A DNA stretch of 25,933 nucleotides from a virus, in the IMG/VR virus record IMGVR_UViG_3300021442_000269, positions 1 through 25,933 of that record. The stretch is one strand, 5' to 3'. Shown here piece by piece: positions 3,885 through 25,933 of the stretch; the stretch's first letter is position 1; each line of letters starts with the position of its first letter. The notes under the pieces are model-generated. The model made no database searches. It saw only the letters and a list, made by a program, of their open reading frames with translations, and was not told the origin of the DNA. A program made the translations under genes and the position numbers.

Positions 3885-3913
3885 TTTTAACCTTACTTAA
3901 ACACGGTTTGAAA

Positions 3914-3924
3914 GTATTTAAAGG
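3914..3924 (-). promoter_or_regulatory. Archaeal TATA box for the leftward operon
   Basis: On the minus strand the box reads CCTTTAAATAC, about 30 bases before the ATG at 3884. That spacing predicts a near-leaderless transcript. The GTGAGCGG box seen before the small cassettes further right is not found here. Confidence 0.7.
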
Positions 3925-4063
3925 TTTGGGTCGTTTTGAGGGGTTTATATCTTTAGGTTGTGCTTAACCGTTTCTATGCCCTAATCCCGCTTATCATCTT
4001 TGAAAATCGGGGGTGGTTTAATATACTACCCCTCTTCTATATATTATACTATATTAAGATATT

Positions 4064-4478
4064 GCTCTATTATACACTATATCTCTTGCTTAATATATAC
4101 CAATAAGGGGGCTTTATAGAGCATATATACTATCTTAATAGAGCATTGGTTAATAGAGCATATATTAATATAACAATAATAGTAATTACTGTAGCTTTTC
4201 TCTGTTCACACATATAACAAAAAAAGCTTTCGAACCAACCCTCATGGCTCTATCAAAGCAATTTACTCAGCTATATATACCGAAAGTGAGCTCTATATAG
4301 CATGCTCAACAGAGTTCTCACGTTAGCGATATAAAGTTTCTCATTTGCACGGTGCGACTGTGCGAAATAGAGCTTAATACAAGTAGGTTTCATATTCTTT
4401 TGATATAACTTATAGTGCACTATATAAACTCTATACCCCCAGCCCCTGACAGACCCTGATTTTCTAAAAAGATAGAGC
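4064..4478. repeat. Non-coding region with eight ATAGAGC boxes; candidate origin or control region
   Basis: Between the divergent genes (3925-4588) I see no plausible coding sequence. The region is very AT-rich and holds the 7-mer ATAGAGC forward at 4116, 4138, 4153, 4367 and 4472, and reverse (GCTCTAT) at 4064, 4247 and 4290. The three copies at 4116-4159 share the longer form TAATAGAGCAT or TATAGAGCAT. A perfect palindrome TATAGTGCACTATA lies at 4411-4424, and two copies of the CAGGGGCTG-type motif lie at 4441-4460. Iterated boxes in AT-rich DNA between divergent gene blocks suit a replication origin or a regulator-binding array. Which of these it is cannot be told from sequence alone. Confidence 0.5.
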
Positions 4479-4511
4479 GGGAGCTATAACGGACTATATA
4501 TACTCCCTCGA

Positions 4512-4547
4512 GCTTTATATACTAATTTGACCCAAAGCTTTATATAG
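4512..4547 (+). promoter_or_regulatory. Tandem TATA promoter of the 118-aa gene
   Basis: Two boxes, GCTTTATATAC (4512-4522) and GCTTTATATAG (4537-4547), are exactly 25 bp apart. The stretch TTATATACTAATTTGACCCA between and over them recurs identically on the minus strand at about 8363-8382 in another promoter. The ATG is at 4589, leaving room for a short leader with a ribosome site. Confidence 0.75.
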
Positions 4548-4588
4548 TTTGAAACTGTGTGTAATATAGAAGAAAGGAGGAAAAAAAT

Positions 4589-4945
4589 ATGCCAGCTTCA
4601 ACAGAAACGCAAAAAGGCACCGCTATGGATTATTTAGCGGCCCCACGTGACTCGGGAATTGTTAAATCTATTATGGGTTTAATAGGATTCGAAGCACCGA
4701 AGGGTGGTCGATTACCGGCCGGAGTCAAGTATGACACCTTAATAGCACTGAATGAAATCTTAGCGTCGAAAGACACCGGAGATTTTAGTTCAATGTTAGC
4801 GACTCGAGTTGTAGAGCTACAGGGCGCAAGGCGAACCACTACATCAAAAGTAGCGGCCACACCGGAGTCCATCATAGCGGCCGTAAAGTCAGGTAAGATT
4901 AATCTTGCTGAGCTTAAGTCTGCTTTGAGTTCTATAGAGAGTTAA
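4589..4945 (+). CDS. Unknown alanine-rich protein, 118 aa, probably highly expressed
   Basis: The family is not recognised. The protein begins MPASTETQKGTAMDYLAAP, is rich in Ala, Ser and Thr, lacks cysteine, and looks like a compact soluble helical protein (…AATPESIIAAVKSGKINLAE…). It has no signal peptide or membrane segment. The start is firm: AAAGGAGG at 4573-4580 lies eight bases before the ATG and is the strongest ribosome site in the window, under a tandem TATA promoter. It is the only rightward gene in the left 9.4 kb and stands alone, followed by a perfect hairpin. Monocistronic, strongly expressed placement beside a candidate origin suggests a DNA-binding, regulatory or anti-host protein, but that is guesswork. 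Confidence 0.82.
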   Translation: MPASTETQKGTAMDYLAAPRDSGIVKSIMGLIGFEAPKGGRLPAGVKYDTLIALNEILASKDTGDFSSMLATRVVELQGARRTTTSKVAATPESIIAAVKSGKINLAELKSALSSIES

Positions 4946-4963
4946 AGCGTTCTAAATGTTCAA

Positions 4964-5169
4964 TGGGGGGAGAGAGAAAAAGAGTCCCCCCAAATTATGT
5001 TTATGGGGTAGCACCCCGTAATAGTGGTGACGGAATAAAGAGACCCAATCTCTTAACGTATTGGTAATAAGACTAAGAGCCGACTGGCGGAGGAATTATT
5101 ATTAAGTATGAACCGATTAAAAACTACTCTGTAGTTGGGCGGTTTGTTGGAGGTAAACACGAGACCTCC
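4964..5169 (+). ncRNA. Array of five perfect hairpins; candidate structured RNA or long 3' UTR
   Basis: Five perfect stems follow one another: TGGGGGGA/TCCCCCCA (4964-4971 with 4985-4992), GGGGT/ACCCC (5005-5009 with 5013-5017), AAGAGA/TCTCTT (5038-5043 with 5049-5054), a nested pair AACCG/CGGTT (5111-5115 with 5140-5144) around AACTAC/GTAGTT (5122-5127 with 5131-5136), and GGAGGT/ACCTCC (5149-5154 with 5164-5169). The first may also terminate or protect the mRNA of the 118-aa gene. No known RNA family is recognised. No credible ORF occupies the stretch. Confidence 0.5.
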
Positions 5170-5230
5170 CCACACTAATAAGGATAGGAAGATGAAAATA
5201 GTAAAATAGTATTACACCTATCCCACTTAC

Positions 5231-5240
5231 GTTTATATAG
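5231..5240 (+). promoter_or_regulatory. Possible TATA box for the structured RNA downstream
   Basis: GTTTATATAG followed by CTATATAATA on the plus strand. If used, transcription would begin near 5265 and run into the folded region that ends with the T-tract at 5613. Only the motif supports it, and AT-rich boxes are common here. Confidence 0.35.
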
Positions 5241-5264
5241 CTATATAATAGTCGTGAGCATATA

Positions 5265-5613
5265 AAAATCATTCGCACGTTAGCAAAGATAGAGACCACC
5301 AAAAGTATAGACTCATCCCTCTTGGAGCACTGTAAGTCACTTATCGGAAGTATATTATTTAAAGTCGACCGACGCACCTTTTTACACTTACTCGATGACT
5401 CACCGAACATGTTATATCATACCCCTTTAAAAGTTCTCATTCTCTCTAAGATGTATCGTCATGATTTAAATTATATGTGCGCTCCATTCCTGACTGGAAA
5501 CGGTTCGACTGGAGCCACGACACCTTATAATGACAAATGTTCTAAACAGGAGGGTGTTAAAGCGGGACGCCCGACCCCTTATATAGGGGCACCCTCCGAA
5601 GTGTATTTTTTTT
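5265..5613 (+). ncRNA. Candidate viral structured non-coding RNA ending in a three-way junction and U-tract
   Basis: The start is inferred from the TATA-like box upstream; the 3' end is set by a T-tract. Two structural domains are visible. At 5481-5515 the perfect stem GCTCCA/TGGAGC encloses the hairpin TTCC-tgact-GGAA. At 5549-5597 the stem GGAGGGTG/CACCCTCC encloses two adjacent hairpins, CGGG-acg-CCCG and CCCC-ttatata-GGGG, with only one unpaired base between them. No tRNA, RNase P or other known family fits. The overlapping frames on either strand (115 and 97 aa) have no recognisable content and no promoter-start logic. Confidence 0.5.
5549..5613 (+). terminator. Three-way-junction structure followed by eight Ts
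   Basis: The outer stem pairs 5549-5556 with 5590-5597, and inner hairpins occupy 5563-5573 and 5575-5589. After gaagtgta comes an uninterrupted run of eight Ts (5606-5613). Archaeal RNA polymerase terminates at T-runs, so this is a plausible 3' end, while the elaborate fold suggests the RNA itself is functional. Confidence 0.6.
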
Positions 5614-5917
5614 CTCAGGGGCTGAGCGAGGTGAAACAACTCGTCGTTAGAGTATCGTTCTCACAGTGAGGGTGAGTCCTTCAGTGACGCGAATTGCTTC
5701 TATCTCTTTTGTCCTTGACACTTAATGGGGTTCTTATGGTAACAGGTCTCCCAGAGAGCGAACTCTCACTCCTGCGCACGAAACCAAAAGGTTAGAGCGC
5801 ACAGTTTAGGCCGCAAGTATACAGTGTTTAACCCCTATATAAAAGTATGGGCGTCAGGCCCTGACCCCGCTGGCCTAAGAGCGCCACATTAATGACTGAG
5901 CTTAGACCTTGAGGGTA
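5614..5917. other. Non-coding stretch with further hairpins
   Basis: No gene is seen. The plus strand has CAGGGGCTG at 5617-5625, GAGAG-CGAA-CTCTC (5754-5767), TGCGC/GCGCA (5773-5777 with 5797-5801) enclosing AACC-aaaa-GGTT, and TTAGGCC/GGCCTAA (5806-5812 with 5872-5878) enclosing the palindromic GTCAGGCCCTGAC (5853-5865). A second structured RNA, or the 3' end of the leftward mini-operon, could lie here. Confidence 0.4.
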
Positions 5918-6079
5918 TTACCAATCGCCATTATCTTCGACATCAAAATCTAAAGTTTCAACTAATCCACATGTGCAATTAGAATATATCCAATCACAAT
6001 CAGGTTGGTGTTGTAATTCACTTTTGTTTGCGCCGGAGTTTTCATAATGAAAATCCATTTCTTTTTCGTAGCTACTCAT
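5918..6079 (-). CDS. Small acidic protein with three cysteines, 53 aa
   Basis: ATG at 6079 touches the stop of the upstream 70-aa gene at 6080, and the frame ends TAA at 5918. The product begins MSSYEKEMDFHYENSGANKS, has C28, C35 and C37, and ends in an acidic tail. No family is recognised. It is the second gene of a two-gene leftward cassette, and the exact junction makes it likely to be translated. Confidence 0.62.
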   Translation of the reverse strand: MSSYEKEMDFHYENSGANKSELQHQPDCDWIYSNCTCGLVETLDFDVEDNGDW

Positions 6080-6292
6080 TTATTTCTCCATTGGTTTTGC
6101 TTTTCTCATATCCAAACCGAGTTCTTTAGCTCTCAGTGCTTCACCCATCGGTGTCATTCCTCCAACTGAATGTCGAGGTTGTCCTGTTGGTCTTTTACGG
6201 ACATCATAGAATCTCTCTGGGAGAGGCGTGCTGGCTGGCTCACGTCGGGATTTTTCCCATGACGCAAGCATTTCTTTTATGCTTTGGCTCAT
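6080..6292 (-). CDS. Small basic protein, 70 aa
   Basis: The product begins MSQSIKEMLASWEKSRREPA and is Arg/Lys- and Pro-rich without a recognised domain. The open frame extends upstream to 6388, but that extension translates the promoter itself (its MSGT start is the GTGAGCGG box). The proximal TATA box at 6314-6324 lies only about 22-32 bases before the ATG at 6292, so this ATG is the true start on an almost leaderless transcript. First gene of a two-gene cassette. Confidence 0.7.
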   Translation of the reverse strand: MSQSIKEMLASWEKSRREPASTPLPERFYDVRKRPTGQPRHSVGGMTPMGEALRAKELGLDMRKAKPMEK

Positions 6293-6313
6293 TAATATCT
6301 CTTTAACGAGAGA

Positions 6314-6412
6314 GTATTTAAAGGTTTCTCTCTTAGACGTATATAAGTATCGAGGGGGTTTATATATTGCGTTATAGGTTCCGCTCACTGTTTTTGGTAT
6401 CCAGCCCCTGAT
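6314..6412 (-). promoter_or_regulatory. Cassette promoter: GTGAGCGG box plus two TATA boxes
   Basis: Read on the minus strand: ATCAGGGGCTGG (6401-6412), GTGAGCGG (6381-6388), distal TATA CTTATATAC (6339-6347), proximal TATA CCTTTAAATAC (6314-6324), then ATG at 6292. The two TATA boxes start 25 bp apart. Confidence 0.7.
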
Positions 6413-6547
6413 TTATTTAAATGGGTAGTCTTCCAACTCTGTTAAATACTCGTCGACTGCTACAGCTACATACTCGGGACAGTCCGAAACATTAATTTCG
6501 TCCCCGTCCTCATTTGTAACCATTAACCGCCATGATATTATTTTCAT
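6413..6547 (-). CDS. Small acidic protein, 44 aa
   Basis: ATG at 6547 overlaps the stop of the preceding 51-aa gene by four bases (ATGA), and the frame ends TAA at 6413, directly against the CAGGGGCTGG border motif. The product begins MKIISWRLMVTNEDGDEINV and ends DEYLTELEDYPFK. No family is recognised. Confidence 0.62.
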   Translation of the reverse strand: MKIISWRLMVTNEDGDEINVSDCPEYVAVAVDEYLTELEDYPFK

Positions 6548-6699
6548 AGTTCCAACCCGCACGCATGATAAAAACGTGCTCGGTCAAAATTAGAATTAGA
6601 GTTATAACAGAAATCTGCTAAGTCTCGAATCATGACGCCGTCGGCTTTATGTTCTCGCATAATTTCGGCGAGAGCTTTAAAGTGTTTGCGTGACATCAT
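6544..6699 (-). CDS. Small phage-type protein beginning (M)MSRKHFKALAE, 51 aa
   Basis: ATG at 6699 overlaps the upstream stop; a second ATG at 6696 is an equally good start. The sequence MSRKHFKALAEIMREHKADG followed by …LADFCYNSNSNFDRARFYHAC resembles a small protein type found repeatedly in tailed phages and temperate elements, whose function I do not know. The C-terminal pattern NFDRARFYHAC is the most characteristic part. It is the middle gene of a three-gene cassette. Confidence 0.75.
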   Translation of the reverse strand: MMSRKHFKALAEIMREHKADGVMIRDLADFCYNSNSNFDRARFYHACGLEL

Positions 6700-6863
6700 A
6701 GGAAATACCTATAATTATCTAAAGACATTTTGCCTCTTGCTACCTTAACTAAAAGTTTTTGGTTTACTTTCGAATGACTATAAAAAGTTTCGAAATCTGC
6801 ACTTCCGCCATTAGCGAAATAATCGTGCCATCTGTTTAATACTTGTGTTTCTTGATTACTCAT
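6696..6863 (-). CDS. Small protein, 55 aa
   Basis: The product begins MSNQETQVLNRWHDYFANGG and has no recognised domain. The open frame extends to 6968 but that part reads through promoter DNA. ATG at 6863 has GAGGAAAAT just upstream and lies 31-41 bases from the proximal TATA (6894-6904). An intermediate ATG 14 bases from the TATA box is too close to be transcribed. First gene of its cassette. Confidence 0.68.
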   Translation of the reverse strand: MSNQETQVLNRWHDYFANGGSADFETFYSHSKVNQKLLVKVARGKMSLDNYRYFL

Positions 6864-6893
6864 ATTTTCCTCTATACTTAACATGGTTTCAAA

Positions 6894-6990
6894 GTATATA
6901 AAGCTTTGCCTCGGAAACATATATAAGGCACGGGGAACTATATATAGTGCGTTTTGGGTTCCGCTCACCCTTTTTGGGCCAGCCCCTGAT
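6894..6990 (-). promoter_or_regulatory. Cassette promoter: GTGAGCGG box plus two TATA boxes
   Basis: On the minus strand: ATCAGGGGCTGG (6979-6990), GTGAGCGG (6961-6968), distal TATA CCTTATATATG (6918-6928) and proximal TATA GCTTTATATAC (6894-6904), 24 bp apart, with ATG at 6863. Confidence 0.7.
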
Positions 6991-7017
6991 TCCCTTATAT
7001 ACCCCTTTCTAAACTTA

Positions 7018-7191
7018 TTATTTCATATGTGGTGCGTGTGGGTCGTTCTGTTCATTTAACAAAACGGCACGTCGGCATTCTTGTAATACGTCGTCGTAAT
7101 ACGTTAGCTCGTCGCACTCATCAAGATGTTCAATTCTTTCTAAAAAATGTCTTAATGCGTTTATGCCTGTTATGACTTGACTTCTATTCAT
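7018..7191 (-). CDS. Small helical protein, 57 aa
   Basis: ATG at 7191 overlaps the upstream stop by four bases, with GGAGG about seven bases before it. The product begins MNRSQVITGINALRHFLERI, is rich in acidic residues and looks fully helical. No family is recognised. It is the last gene of a four-gene cassette; the CAGGGGCTGG border motif follows 28 bases later. Confidence 0.65.
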   Translation of the reverse strand: MNRSQVITGINALRHFLERIEHLDECDELTYYDDVLQECRRAVLLNEQNDPHAPHMK

Positions 7192-7346
7192 TCGTTTTCC
7201 TCCATTCCTAATTTAATGAGCATGGCGTCCGCGTCCCATGACTCTATCTTTTTCTTTTCTTTCTTTATCTGCTTAGCTAAAAGCTTTTCTATACGTTCTA
7301 ATGCTTCTACTGTCATCTCTACGGTTCCTACTTCTTTTAATAACAT
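7188..7346 (-). CDS. Small coiled-coil-like protein, 52 aa
   Basis: ATG at 7346 overlaps the upstream TAA (TAATG) and the stop overlaps the next start, so the gene is coupled on both sides. The product begins MLLKEVGTVEMTVEALERIE and continues through a Lys/Glu-rich helix (KQIKKEKKKIESW). No family is recognised. Confidence 0.65.
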   Translation of the reverse strand: MLLKEVGTVEMTVEALERIEKLLAKQIKKEKKKIESWDADAMLIKLGMEENE

Positions 7347-7600
7347 TATGCCACTTCCTTTCTTTTCATTTCATCTTCCTTAAAGATTTGGTCTAATTCT
7401 TGTATTCTTGAATAAACTTCTTTCTTCCATCGAACTAAATCTTGACCTTTTAACTTATCACCTCTTAAGGTGTATTCGTCAGCCCAAAAGCTAACCATAC
7501 CTTTTACAGTTCCAAGCACCCATGATTCAATAGAATATTGTTCACGGCTTAAACTGTCGGCTTCTCGAGCTCTCTTTAAATTTCTTCTTATTGATTCCAT
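7346..7600 (-). CDS. Unknown helical protein, 84 aa
   Basis: The product begins MESIRRNLKRAREADSLSRE, is highly charged and helical, and shows no recognised domain. The frame also allows an ATG at 7618 (90 aa) overlapping the upstream gene by 17 bases. I prefer 7600 because it sits one base after the upstream stop and has GGAGAG about ten bases before it. The stop is fused to the next start as TAATG. Confidence 0.68.
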   Translation of the reverse strand: MESIRRNLKRAREADSLSREQYSIESWVLGTVKGMVSFWADEYTLRGDKLKGQDLVRWKKEVYSRIQELDQIFKEDEMKRKEVA

Positions 7601-7601
7601 T

Positions 7602-7823
7602 TTACCAAAACTCTCCATTTTGAGTTATTACATCTATTGCGTGTCTGTCTTTTGGACTTCTTCGCATTCTTACTGCGTGAGTCTCACAGTCATATTTACC
7701 ATTACAGACATCTTTTCTTATTGACTCACCAGTCAAACTACCTTTCGGTGCATCTATCCAGTCGGGCATAACGTGCCCATCGGATAATCTAATTACATGT
7801 GTTAAAACTTTTATTGTATACAT
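7602..7823 (-). CDS. Unknown protein, 73 aa, first gene of a four-gene cassette
   Basis: The product begins MYTIKVLTHVIRLSDGHVMP and has two cysteines (C40 and C46) in a basic context, with no family recognised. ATG at 7823 is preceded by GAGGAAAAT and lies 31-41 bases from the proximal TATA at 7854-7864. It heads the longest cassette of the region. Confidence 0.72.
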   Translation of the reverse strand: MYTIKVLTHVIRLSDGHVMPDWIDAPKGSLTGESIRKDVCNGKYDCETHAVRMRRSPKDRHAIDVITQNGEFW

Positions 7824-7853
7824 ATTTTCCTCTATCTTAACTGTAGCGAGAGA

Positions 7854-7990
7854 GTATATAAAGCTTTGTGTCCAGATAGTATATAAGTCTCCTCTTTCCT
7901 TATATACCCCCTTTTAGAACCCGCTCGCACTTTTTGAAAAATAGGCCAGCACAAATGGTTTTATTTCAATTTTTGGGGCCAGACCCTGAT
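7854..7990 (-). promoter_or_regulatory. Cassette promoter: variant GTGCGAGCGG box plus two TATA boxes
   Basis: On the minus strand: ATCAGGGTCTGG (7979-7990), GTGCGAGCGG (7921-7930, a two-base longer variant of the box), distal TATA CTTATATAC (7879-7887) and proximal TATA GCTTTATATAC (7854-7864), 25 bp apart, with ATG at 7823. Confidence 0.65.
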
Positions 7991-8047
7991 TTTTTATTTA
8001 TAGTATATAAGGTTGTCGGTTGAGATTCATCCAGTGTCCCTCACGCT

Positions 8048-8122
8048 TCATTGGACTTTAAACCAAGTGGGCCATGAACCCGTTGTTTTACGCTTCGCCT
8101 TCAGTTGTCGGGCGACCGACAT
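8048..8122 (-). CDS. Possible 24-aa basic micro-protein
   Basis: ATG at 8122 gives MSVARQLKAKRKTTGSWPTW followed by FKVQ and TGA at 8048. It is very basic and ends just before the border motif at 7979-7990, but no ribosome site is obvious and the frame is too short to trust. The region 7991-8228 is otherwise empty of convincing genes. Confidence 0.3.
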   Translation of the reverse strand: MSVARQLKAKRKTTGSWPTWFKVQ

Positions 8123-8228
8123 TTATTTTAATTCGAGTATTAATCGAATCTATAAACAGATATCAGAACGACAGCATTAAAGTATACGTCTTAATACCTA
8201 TGAACTTCCTACCTGTTTTAAGTGTAAT

Positions 8229-8315
8229 TTATTTCTTTGACCACTTTGACATACGGGTGGACGTTGGAATACGTCCAATCTTTTGCCATAGCTTTTGAAT
8301 TGGTGTTAGTTTCAT
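8229..8315 (-). CDS. 28-aa basic micro-protein with a TRMSxW motif
   Basis: ATG at 8315 is preceded by AGGAGG and by a full cassette promoter, so expression is likely despite the size. The product begins MKLTPIQKLWQKIGRIPTST and ends RMSKWSKK. Its C-terminal half resembles that of the 47-aa protein at 8912-9055 (W, two to four residues, R, then TxTRMSxW, then basic residues). The open frame extends upstream to 8423 only by reading through the promoter. Function unknown. Confidence 0.6.
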   Translation of the reverse strand: MKLTPIQKLWQKIGRIPTSTRMSKWSKK

Positions 8316-8348
8316 TTCTTTTCCTCCTATATTACACGTAGCGACAAA

Positions 8349-8449
8349 GTATATAAGGCTATGGGTCAAATTAGTATATAAGGGTCGAGGGGGTATATAT
8401 ACCCCCCTATGCCTCCCGCTCACCTATTTCTGATAGGCCAGCCCCTGAT
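8349..8449 (-). promoter_or_regulatory. Cassette promoter: GTGAGCGG box plus two TATA boxes
   Basis: On the minus strand: ATCAGGGGCTGG (8438-8449), GTGAGCGG (8416-8423), distal TATA CTTATATAC (8374-8382) and proximal TATA GCCTTATATAC (8349-8359), 25 bp apart, then AGGAGG and ATG at 8315. Part of this promoter is identical to that of the rightward gene at 4589. Confidence 0.72.
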
Positions 8450-8539
8450 ACATAGGGGCATCCCTATGGGGGCCAATATATGGGGGGGTATGGAGAGGGG
8501 TCACCCCCTCCTATGTGCGTGTGCTGTTATGCTATATGC

Positions 8540-8611
8540 TTATGCGTATCTGCGTGACATTATAGACATTATGACTATAACATCTGTCAAATATGATTGA
8601 TATGTATCCAT
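8540..8611 (-). CDS. Possible 23-aa micro-protein
   Basis: ATG at 8611 gives MDTYQSYLTDVIVIMSIMSR followed by RYA and TAA. It lies 32-42 bases downstream of a TATA box (CCTTTATATGC at 8643-8653) with AGAGG upstream, which is cassette-like logic, but the short frame has little internal support. Downstream to 8450 nothing else is seen. Confidence 0.35.
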   Translation of the reverse strand: MDTYQSYLTDVIVIMSIMSRRYA

Positions 8612-8642
8612 TGTTTTACCTCTAATATACCATGGCGACCAA

Positions 8643-8653
8643 GCATATAAAGG
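8643..8653 (-). promoter_or_regulatory. TATA box of a short cassette
   Basis: The minus strand reads CCTTTATATGC with the border-type motif GTCAGGCCCTGCC just upstream (8665-8677). No GTGAGCGG box or second TATA is seen, so this is a weaker relative of the other cassette promoters. Confidence 0.45.
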
Positions 8654-8763
8654 TATGGGTAGGAGTCAGGCCCTGCCGGTATTTTTGTTAGTGCCATGGG
8701 GTAGTTATTAAAAATAAAATAACATAGCGCCAGTCAAGGCCCAACCACCTTAAGAGTCTACGC

Positions 8764-8889
8764 TTAATCAAGGCGCCCCCAGCTCAAAAAGACTGCCACG
8801 GCATCGGCATCAATTAAATGCATCTGCGGCTCTTCTTCTGAATCCCAAATTGTGTTTACTGTTTCGTAAAATGTATCGGTGAATTCCAT
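8764..8889 (-). CDS. Small acidic protein, 41 aa
   Basis: ATG at 8889 follows the 47-aa gene after a 22-base gap and the frame ends TAA at 8764. The product begins MEFTDTFYETVNTIWDSEEE and ends AVAVFLSWGRLD. No family is recognised and the ribosome site is poor; position in the cassette is the main support. Confidence 0.5.
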   Translation of the reverse strand: MEFTDTFYETVNTIWDSEEEPQMHLIDADAVAVFLSWGRLD

Positions 8890-8911
8890 ATGTAGTATAC
8901 CCCCTATACCC

Positions 8912-9055
8912 CTACCTACCCCTACGGGCCCATGTGGACATACGGGTTGGGGTGTCCATGCGGGATGTTTGTTTCCATATTTGGTGTGCCACTGTGCGGG
9001 CTATTACATCCCTATTGTGTGTGTCTATGTCTTGCTGTGTTATTGTTGTTGTCAT
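8912..9055 (-). CDS. 47-aa basic protein with a TRMSxW motif
   Basis: ATG at 9055 is preceded by AGGAG and a TATA box at 9090-9100. The product begins MTTTITQQDIDTHNRDVIAR and ends in QIWKQTSRMDTPTRMSTWAR plus RGR. The tail matches that of the 28-aa protein at 8229-8315, so the two are probably paralogues. No known family is recognised. First gene of the leftmost-reading block that faces the rightward operon at 9413. Confidence 0.6.
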   Translation of the reverse strand: MTTTITQQDIDTHNRDVIARTVAHQIWKQTSRMDTPTRMSTWARRGR

Positions 9056-9089
9056 GTTTCTTAACTCCTATTATACCAATAGCTACCAT

Positions 9090-9172
9090 ACATATAAGCC
9101 TATGGGTGAGTGTTATAGAGGATGTATGTTTATATCTCTAATGCACTATATAAAGGATATAATTCCGCTCAC
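9090..9172 (-). promoter_or_regulatory. Cassette promoter with GTGAGCGG box
   Basis: On the minus strand GTGAGCGG (9165-9172) lies about 65 bp upstream of TATA GGCTTATATGT (9090-9100); a further TATA-like CCTTTATATAG is near 9147-9157. The CAGGGGCTGG motif is absent here. From 9173 to 9358 I see only GC-rich inverted stretches and no gene. Confidence 0.6.
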
Positions 9173-23980: not shown

Positions 23981-25933
23981 ATGAAAGGTGACAAAGCAAG
24001 AAAATCAATGATGAAGCAATCCGTTCCACGTGCGTGGCGCGCTTATGTTTCGGGTGCTACATGGACTGCTGGCACATCTACTCTTAGTATTCATAATTTT
24101 AATGCTCCTGATGTTGATGTAGGTATTACAGGAACTGGGGGTTCTCAAGGAACTCAAGGTACACAAGGTACTCTAGGAACACAAGGAGCTATAGGTGCTC
24201 AAGGTACAGCTGGTACAGCTGCATCTCAAGGAACTACTGGTACTCAGGGAACTACTGGAACTCAAGGAACTACAGGAACTCAAGGAACTACTGGTACTCA
24301 GGGAACTACTGGAACTCAAGGAACTACAGGAACTCAAGGTACACAAGGTACTCAAGGAACACAAGGGGTTCAAGGAACTCAGGGTACTCAAGGTACTCAG
24401 GGTACTCAAGGTACTCAAGGTATATTAGGTGCTTTTGGTGGAGACAGTCTTGAATTTAACTGGTCTACTTTAGATAATTCTGCTGCTGTGCCCGGTCAAA
24501 CTAATATAGCTTTAGATTTAGCTGCGCCCGCAGGAGCTACTCCATATGTTTATTCCGATGCTACAAAGGTAGCCGTTTCAAACTTTGATATAAACTCTGA
24601 TGATATTTCGGCATGGCTTGCTACTTTCGATGACCAAACTGATAACCCTAGAGGTTCTATAAAGATAACTCAATCTAATGATTCCTCTTATTGGGCTATA
24701 TATAATATTACAGGAGCATCAACTACGTCAGGCTCTAGTACTACTGCATGTCACTACTTAGACGTAGATGGTATAACCTATAATGGTAATTTTAATAATG
24801 GTGAGAACGTAGTTCTCAGTTTTGTTTCTTTTGGTGCTCAAGGAGCTCAAGGAGAACAAGGACTTATTGGAGTACAAGGTACTCAAGGAATTAGAGGTCT
24901 TACTGGTTCTCAAGGAATACAAGGTATTCAAGGAACTCAAGGAACTTCAGGTCCAATAGGAGACCCCGGCGAACCCGGACCTCAAGGTACACAAGGTACT
25001 TTAGGAACACAAGGTACTACAGGAACACAAGGTACTACAGGAACACAAGGTGCTACAGGTACTCAAGGTACTACAGGTGCTCAAGGTACTACAGGTTCTC
25101 AAGGTGCTACTGGTACACAAGGTGCTACTGGTACACAAGGTACAACAGGTGCTCAAGGTGCAACTGGTACTCAGGGAACTACTGGTACTCAGGGAACTAC
25201 AGGCGCTCAAGGTGCAACTGGTACTCAAGGAACAACAGGTACTCAAGGAACAACTGGTGCTCAGGGAACTCAAGGAACAATTGGAACTCAAGGAACAACA
25301 GGTACTCAAGGAACAACAGGTGCTCAAGGTGCACAGGGAATTCAAGGAACTACAGGAGCTACTGGTGCTCAAGGTGCAACTGGTACTCAAGGAACAACTG
25401 GAACTCAAGGTGCAACTGGTACTCAAGGTACTACAGGTACTCAAGGTACTACAGGTACACAAGGAACTCAGGGTACACAAGGAACTACTGGAGATACTGG
25501 TAGTCAAGGAGCTACGGGAACTCAAGGAACAACTGGAACTCAAGGAACAACTGGAACTCAAGGTGCTACAGGCGCTCAAGGTGCAACTGGTACTCAAGGA
25601 ACAACAGGTGCTACAGGTGCTCAAGGTACAACAGGAACTCAAGGAACTACTGGAGATACTGGTGCTCAAGGTACTACAGGTACTCAAGGAACAACTGGAA
25701 CTCAAGGAACAACTGGAACTCAAGGTGCTACAGGCGCTCAAGGTGCAACTGGTACTCAAGGAACAACAGGTGCTACAGGTGCTCAAGGTACAACGGGAAC
25801 TCAAGGAACTCAAGGTATTCAAGGTATAAAAGGAGATACAGGAGATACTGGTGCTCAAGGTACTACAGGTACTCAAGGAACAACTGGAACTCAAGGTGCT
25901 ACAGGCGCTCAAGGTGCAACTGGTACTCAAGGA
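23981..25933 (+). CDS. Collagen-like fibre protein, partial at the window end
   Basis: The frame is open for 651 codons from ATG 23981 to the edge. The first 47 residues ([20 protein letters not shown]…) are an attachment-like N-terminus. Residues about 48-147 are Gly-X-Y repeats, about 148-285 a non-repetitive domain ([20 protein letters not shown]…), and from about 287 on Gly-X-Y repeats again. The triplets are mostly GTQ, GTT, GAT and GAQ with almost no proline; [12 protein letters not shown] at about 325-336 is the only collagen-typical part. Such proteins form trimeric fibres on heads or tails. The start has only a weak AAGG ribosome site, after a terminator. No promoter is evident. Confidence 0.85.
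24134..24421 (+). repeat. First Gly-X-Y coding repeat block
   Basis: About 32 consecutive 9-base-related units of the type GGAACTCAA or GGTACTCAA code for GTQ/GTT triplets. The pattern stops abruptly where the intervening globular domain begins. It is coding repetition, not a CRISPR array. Confidence 0.85.
24838..25933 (+). repeat. Second Gly-X-Y coding repeat block with 162-base higher-order repeats
   Basis: Nine-base units continue to the window end. Within them a 112-base stretch at 25521-25632 recurs without change at 25683-25794, an offset of 162 bases (18 units), and part of it recurs again from about 25872. This points to recent duplication within the fibre gene. Confidence 0.8.

Follow-up and report, generated by a model that had tools for sequence, protein, structure and literature searches.

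A conserved, fixed-geometry promoter-like cassette repeated ahead of exchangeable microgenes in one clade of tailed viruses

The window analyzed here is a 25,933-nt stretch of viral DNA (IMG/VR virus record IMGVR_UViG_3300021442_000269, positions 1-25,933), a tailed-virus fragment with archaeal-type promoters that encodes terminase, portal, capsid-like, PD-(D/E)XK nuclease, and CbbQ-like genes. It contains a repeated 91-bp layout, hereafter the cassette, that is common to four copies on the minus strand and one on the plus strand and consists, in order, of an A-run, a GTGAGCGG-like box, and three TATA-like elements. The sequence and the geometry of the cassette are conserved among related viruses, it is restricted to one locus in one viral clade, and the genes behind it are shuffled. 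We consider it probable that the cassette is a co-regulated promoter unit in which a core promoter is combined with an upstream regulator platform of fixed geometry. If so, the copies would act as promoters, would be bound and activated by a regulator, and would give the units behind them a common timing.

Starting from the window copies, a profile iterated over relatives recovered 76 distinct copies, and the 91-column alignment of these copies supplies the column numbers used below (BRE, B recognition element).

Columns 1-4: A-run
Columns 7-14: box GTGAGCGG
Columns 19-22: TATA-like stretch
Columns 28-36: distal element GTATATAAG
Columns 40-44: core CCTCG or CGAGG
Columns 48-56: middle element CTTATATAC
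Columns 67-72: BRE-like CAAAGC
Columns 73-81: proximal TATA YTTAWATAC
Columns 67-81: BRE/TATA core as a whole, CAAAGC-TTTATATAC

The TATA columns mostly carry 1.9-2.0 bits and the CGG of the box 1.6-2.0 bits, with many spacer columns near zero, and the mean pairwise identity of nonredundant copies is 0.67. The 76 copies contain one insertion in total, of 1 nt; profile searches favor gap-free copies, and this count is best read together with its control, a variable-gap pattern scan of 2.9 million viral contigs in which 30 spacing combinations were allowed and the 47-bp spacing was found almost exclusively. Records with other spacing lack the terminase (TerL) of the clade, which most of the cassette contigs checked do carry. 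By comparison, gaps open 149 times (~2.9 per 92 bp) across 4,708 aligned bp of the remaining noncoding DNA of the locus, which is 69-80% identical. Copies within one genome are as diverged (identity 0.665) as copies from different genomes (0.653), and thus selection, not recent copying, keeps the layout; recent duplication as the cause of the likeness was rejected on this ground. The exact cassette pattern, sought as a host copy of the promoter, had no match in 84,980 prokaryotic species genomes, and the cassette had none in 50,697 cultivated phage records. Genuine copies are confined to contigs of this TerL clade, each of which has them in a single island. The original prediction, which described a plug-in cassette of defined geometry, named as evidence against itself relatives that keep the genes and lose the box or its spacing. 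The idea survived the comparison: relatives keep box and spacing (76 distinct copies) and exchange the genes behind them (57 distinct adjacencies).

In the window itself, the following copies were located.

4467-4557, plus strand: cassette facing the others, with box-like TAGAGCGG at 4473-4480, dyad at 4494-4522, and BRE/TATA core at 4533-4547
6304-6394, minus strand: cassette with box at 6381-6388, dyad at 6339-6367, and BRE/TATA core at 6314-6328
6884-6974, minus strand: cassette with box at 6961-6968, dyad at 6919-6947, and BRE/TATA core at 6894-6908
7844-7934, minus strand: cassette with a GCGAGCGG box at 7921-7928, dyad at 7879-7907, and BRE/TATA core at 7854-7868
8339-8429, minus strand: cassette with box at 8416-8423, dyad at 8374-8402, and BRE/TATA core at 8349-8363
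9091-9172, minus strand: degenerate cassette with intact GTGAGCGG at 9165-9172, an insertion after the box, a broken dyad, and the core TATA at 9091-9098, 74 bp from the box

The exact boxes (6381, 6961, 8416, and 9165) are where they had been reported, as is the variant GTGCGAGCGG at 7921-7930, all on the minus strand. Five minus-strand promoters of a single layout had been proposed; four have it, and the copy at 9172 departs from it through its insertion and broken upstream module (an intact counterpart of this copy is found in a relative, G001, at 76143). The plus-strand copy, a sixth that had been overlooked, is 75-81% complementary to two of the minus-strand copies and precedes a 118-aa open reading frame (ORF). 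Box and proximal TATA had been placed 62-68 bp apart. Measured from the start of the box, the distance is 66 bp in the four good minus-strand copies and falls outside that range in the 9172 copy; 68 bp is obtained only when counting from the 2-nt-longer GTGCGAGCGG. Both of the TATA elements described earlier are present, and a third lies 21 bp upstream of the second, with which it forms an inverted repeat. The window also has two simple TATA promoters that lack both box and dyad (8667 and 5855, minus strand), each with CAGGGCCTG directly upstream.

It should be noted that the box alone is weak (nine matches with one mismatch in the window vs. 7.5 expected), as it might be if the pattern were a chance or base-composition artifact of AT-rich intergenic DNA. 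However, the combined pattern TATATA-N14-TTATAT-N18-YTTAWATR occurs five times in the 25.9-kb window and in none of 400 first-order Markov simulations, and the reversed three-TATA pattern, used as a control, has no match in 26 records. Together with the 76 distinct copies in one clade, these results refute a chance origin, to which we assign practically no weight.

The distal element mirrors the middle one across column 42, and the two form a 29-bp dyad, GTATATAAG and CTTATATAC being 21 bp apart (center to center) around a CCTC/GAGG core. This is the best dyad axis of the cassette (palindrome score 0.644 vs. a mean of 0.26 over all axes). Columns 39-44 switch as a block between CCTCN and its reverse complement, which is the strongest covariation in the alignment (z 39), and both core orientations are found before one and the same gene family. 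Such a block-flipping core on the dyad axis is as expected for orientation-independent recognition. Two relatives also carry the dyad by itself, immediately upstream of the lone cassette. Distances between TATA elements peak at 21, 46, and 25 bp. A BRE-like A-rich element is found only at the proximal TATA, which has the features of an archaeal BRE/TATA core (TATA octamer, BRE, and a consistent short distance to the gene start). Counted from the first base of the proximal TATA, the ATG is mostly 39-51 nt downstream and has a GAGG-type Shine-Dalgarno (SD) sequence, a combination that fits a predicted transcription start ~10-20 nt before the ATG.

Each of the three elements is a match to the archaeal TATA box, and the cassette could be read as three tandem promoters, with every TATA used, multiple starts, and no separate regulator. 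We consider this very unlikely, given that the BRE-like element accompanies the proximal TATA only, that the distal element is oriented as the mirror of the middle one, and that the middle element would give a start close to the proximal TATA; in addition, this reading leaves the GTGAGCGG box and the CCTC core unexplained. The middle element (the second TATA as originally described) more likely serves as half of a dyad operator than as a promoter of its own.

In the co-regulated promoter unit that we propose, columns 67-81 would be the BRE/TATA core for TBP, TFB, and RNA polymerase, and a short SD-containing leader would separate this core from the first gene. The upstream module would serve as a platform for a sequence-specific regulator. 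Relative to the predicted start, its A-run and GTGAGCGG box would lie around -93, and its TATA-like operator, which has two-fold symmetry, would be centered around -62. With two helical turns (21 bp) between the operator half-sites, one face of the DNA could accommodate a dimer or paired dimers at a fixed distance from the core. Activation is favored over repression because the operator lies upstream of the BRE. A repressor operator, silencing the island until repression is lifted or silencing it late, is possible but rather unlikely: repressors commonly have sites with dyad symmetry and several operators at a locus, and the lineage-specific motifs nearby (see below) look like operators of diverging repressors, but the dyad is ~25 bp upstream of the TATA and does not overlap BRE, TATA, or start. 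As for a stem-loop of the promoter early stem-loop (PeSL) type of T4, the dyad lies upstream of the predicted start and would thus be outside the transcript of its own unit, but read-through RNA could include it. Given several copies of the unit, the virus could switch on the whole island of mini-operons together (microproteins, tRNA-Glu, and structured RNAs), and common control of the units, as originally suggested, would follow this scheme. The virus could also take in or swap genes without altering their control.

Several observations count against this proposal. Neither a viral TFB nor a viral TBP that might act as the specific factor was found in 10 contigs, and a search for DNA-binding families among the small ORFs of one relative gave nothing convincing as a regulator. 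In three closely similar contigs the outermost unit retains the core only, and in the window it is disrupted; the upstream module is thus dispensable in some cases. Finally, an archaeal host is probable, as judged from the BRE/TATA promoters and the replication genes of a relative.

That relative is an 81-kb contig carrying PolB, a class II ribonucleotide reductase, an ATP-dependent ligase, and an archaeal-type Hsp20. Hundreds of environmental relatives of the window TerL exist, whereas the cultivated ones are distant and few (including Halogranum tailed virus 1, HGTV-1); no TerL relative that could assign a host was found in the 84,980 bacterial and archaeal species genomes. The virus family is probably of marine origin. 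At the end of the window, a long ORF with collagen-like repeats (24067-25933) runs off the contig.

On every long contig, all of the cassettes found sit in one island of a few kb, typically with one cassette facing two to six opposite ones, and nearly every microgene locus has cassettes. About 20 families of short ORFs stand behind them (roughly 27-126 aa; the ORFs were called mechanically, and some may be spurious). The 57 different neighbor pairs were counted among about 21 families, and genes and RNAs alike are shuffled behind the cassettes. Families 3, 7, 8, and 15 always come first behind a cassette (family 2 once), and families 5, 6, 10, 16, 17, and 18 never do. As had been predicted, the units hold one to four tiny ORFs each. 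The window contains the following.

4589-4945, plus strand: 118-aa ORF (family 0), kept in 14 contigs, usually as the leading gene after the lone opposite cassette
5001-5178, plus strand: manA RNA (RF01745), a full-length match of 48 bits that is below the gathering score in the window and above it in five relatives
5918-6292, minus strand: two-gene unit (6080-6292, 5918-6079)
6413-6863, minus strand: three-gene unit (6696-6863, 6544-6699, and a short ORF ending at 6413)
7018-7823, minus strand: four-gene unit (7602-7823, 7346-7600, 7188-7346, 7018-7191)
8084-8156, minus strand: conserved RNA candidate of ~75 nt, with two hairpins and compensatory changes
8229-8315, minus strand: 28-aa ORF (family 3, the leading gene after its cassette in all 13 cases)
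8912-9055, minus strand: 47-aa ORF resembling the 28-aa family-3 leader gene

Accessory microproteins had been named as the cargo of these units; microgenes do stand behind the cassettes, but the units carry RNAs too. The manA RNA, which is known from marine metagenomes and cyanophages, also lies in the islands of L123, L129, L126, L139, L136, L103, L137, and L111. The RNA candidate at 8084-8156 has no Rfam match; it recurs in L103 (where it closely follows manA), L126, L129, L137, L138, L139, and others. A tRNA-Glu (UUC) with encoded CCA is found within the island of eight relatives (L123, L129, L138, L139, L093, L112, L104, and L113) and is absent from the window. None of the window microproteins examined has an informative Pfam or PHROG match. 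For the 118-aa protein, a recognizable DNA-binding fold was considered and dropped, the AlphaFold model being too weak to use (mean predicted local distance difference test score, pLDDT, 56). The island genes may be accessory or host-takeover genes, possibly with anti-defense roles.

Because genes change partners between cassettes (57 adjacencies), the copies might be kept mainly as PeSL-like recombination sites for homologous or site-specific exchange of gene modules, with any promoter role secondary. The inverted arms and an asymmetric core present in both orientations are also formally like the core site of a recombinase. We nonetheless regard this explanation as improbable. Copies within a genome are 66% identical, which makes them poor substrates for homologous recombination, and they are not homogenized; the left and right cassette halves are positively, though weakly, correlated (rho 0.14-0.18); and the invariant spacing out to the BRE/TATA core would be unexplained.

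Two further segments of the window may be mentioned here. Beside the lone cassette, ~340 bp of noncoding DNA at 3885-4228 are 70-80% conserved in several relatives, AT-rich, and marked by repeated AGAGCATATA-type words; this stretch is possibly an origin or a regulatory region. At 5867-5913, a 47-nt segment with a GGTCTAAG...CTTAGGCC stem is 87-100% identical in several relatives, where it occurs in either orientation relative to the window.

Short motifs specific to individual lineages accompany the cassettes. The window has this one:

4440-8675: nine copies of motif CAGGGNCTG, at 4440, 4450, 5616, 5855, 6402, 6980, 7980, 8439, and 8667

All nine are in the cassette locus, with none elsewhere in the window (0.42 expected). 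Comparable concentrations are seen for CAGGGGCTG in G003 (13 in the locus, none in the remaining 30 kb), GACAGTC in G005/G006 (6-7 in the locus, none outside), and ACATGTC in G009 (11 in the locus, two in 66 kb), and AAGGTTTGG is a further lineage motif at the equivalent place in other lineages. The share of cassettes with the lineage motif no more than 40 bp upstream ranges from 2/5 to 6/6. G001, which has the closer terminase, differs from the window in its motif, and G002 and G003 have that of the window. The motif may be a lineage-specific operator. As a tentative extension, which we think possible but would not count on, there could be a viral regulon of two layers. The first, an upstream module common to the clade and locked in its geometry, would consist of the box and the orientation-independent TATA-like dyad and would mark units of swappable microgenes and RNAs; the second, a short motif exchanged between lineages, would add lineage-specific control, comparable to diverging immunity operators.

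Repeated sequences also reportedly precede many small genes of cluster K mycobacteriophages; these start-associated sequences are bacterial repeats tied to translation starts, a context different from that of the cassette. Closer parallels come from archaeal viruses. The class I and II intergenic repeats of HF2, an archaeal tailed virus, have promoter activity shown by reporter (PMC8707807). As with the cassette, the copies recur between genes, are conserved within a clade, and have a TATA and a BRE apiece. Some precede tRNAs and small genes, and relatives keep the repeats in corresponding parts of the genome, as they do the cassette in its single island. Unlike the cassette, however, they are 56-58 bp or 29 bp long, have other motifs, and are spread over early and late arms; the cassette does not display the HF2 class I motifs TCTTTAAGTC and CGTCTNNTAGAG, and its profile found nothing significant in HF2 14-50 kb. 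In HGTV-1, a motif made up of a TATA and an inverted repeat recurs before many ORFs; a role in gene regulation and shuffling has been proposed for it, and it has been likened to the T4 PeSLs (PMC3950731). The common ground is a promoter with an inverted repeat before many units of a shuffled region, but the HGTV-1 repeat is of an ACTTAAA-type TATA, runs across the genome part examined, and is without the three-TATA geometry; the best hit of the cassette profile in HGTV-1 40-90 kb is not significant (E 0.37). The SIRV2-type early/anti-defense promoters, mostly of non-tailed Sulfolobales viruses and with known early expression (PMC11065993), similarly place a shared regulatory sequence around BRE/TATA before many small variable genes of one viral genome. 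In some of them the inverted repeat overlaps the BRE (PMC11065993), whereas the cassette dyad lies upstream of it. The cassette thus shares the principle of repeated archaeal-virus promoters, but not their sequence or architecture, and is a variant of an already known kind of system.

Gene timing in tailed viruses of marine archaea is barely known because almost none of these viruses can be grown. The fixed spacing of parts amid drifting spacers makes the cassette a regulator site that is open to direct testing and could serve as bait for the activator or repressor. The cassettes also offer a route to cataloging accessory genes, since whatever stands behind one is a candidate host-takeover or anti-defense gene, following the approach used for the early promoters of Sulfolobales viruses (PMC11065993).

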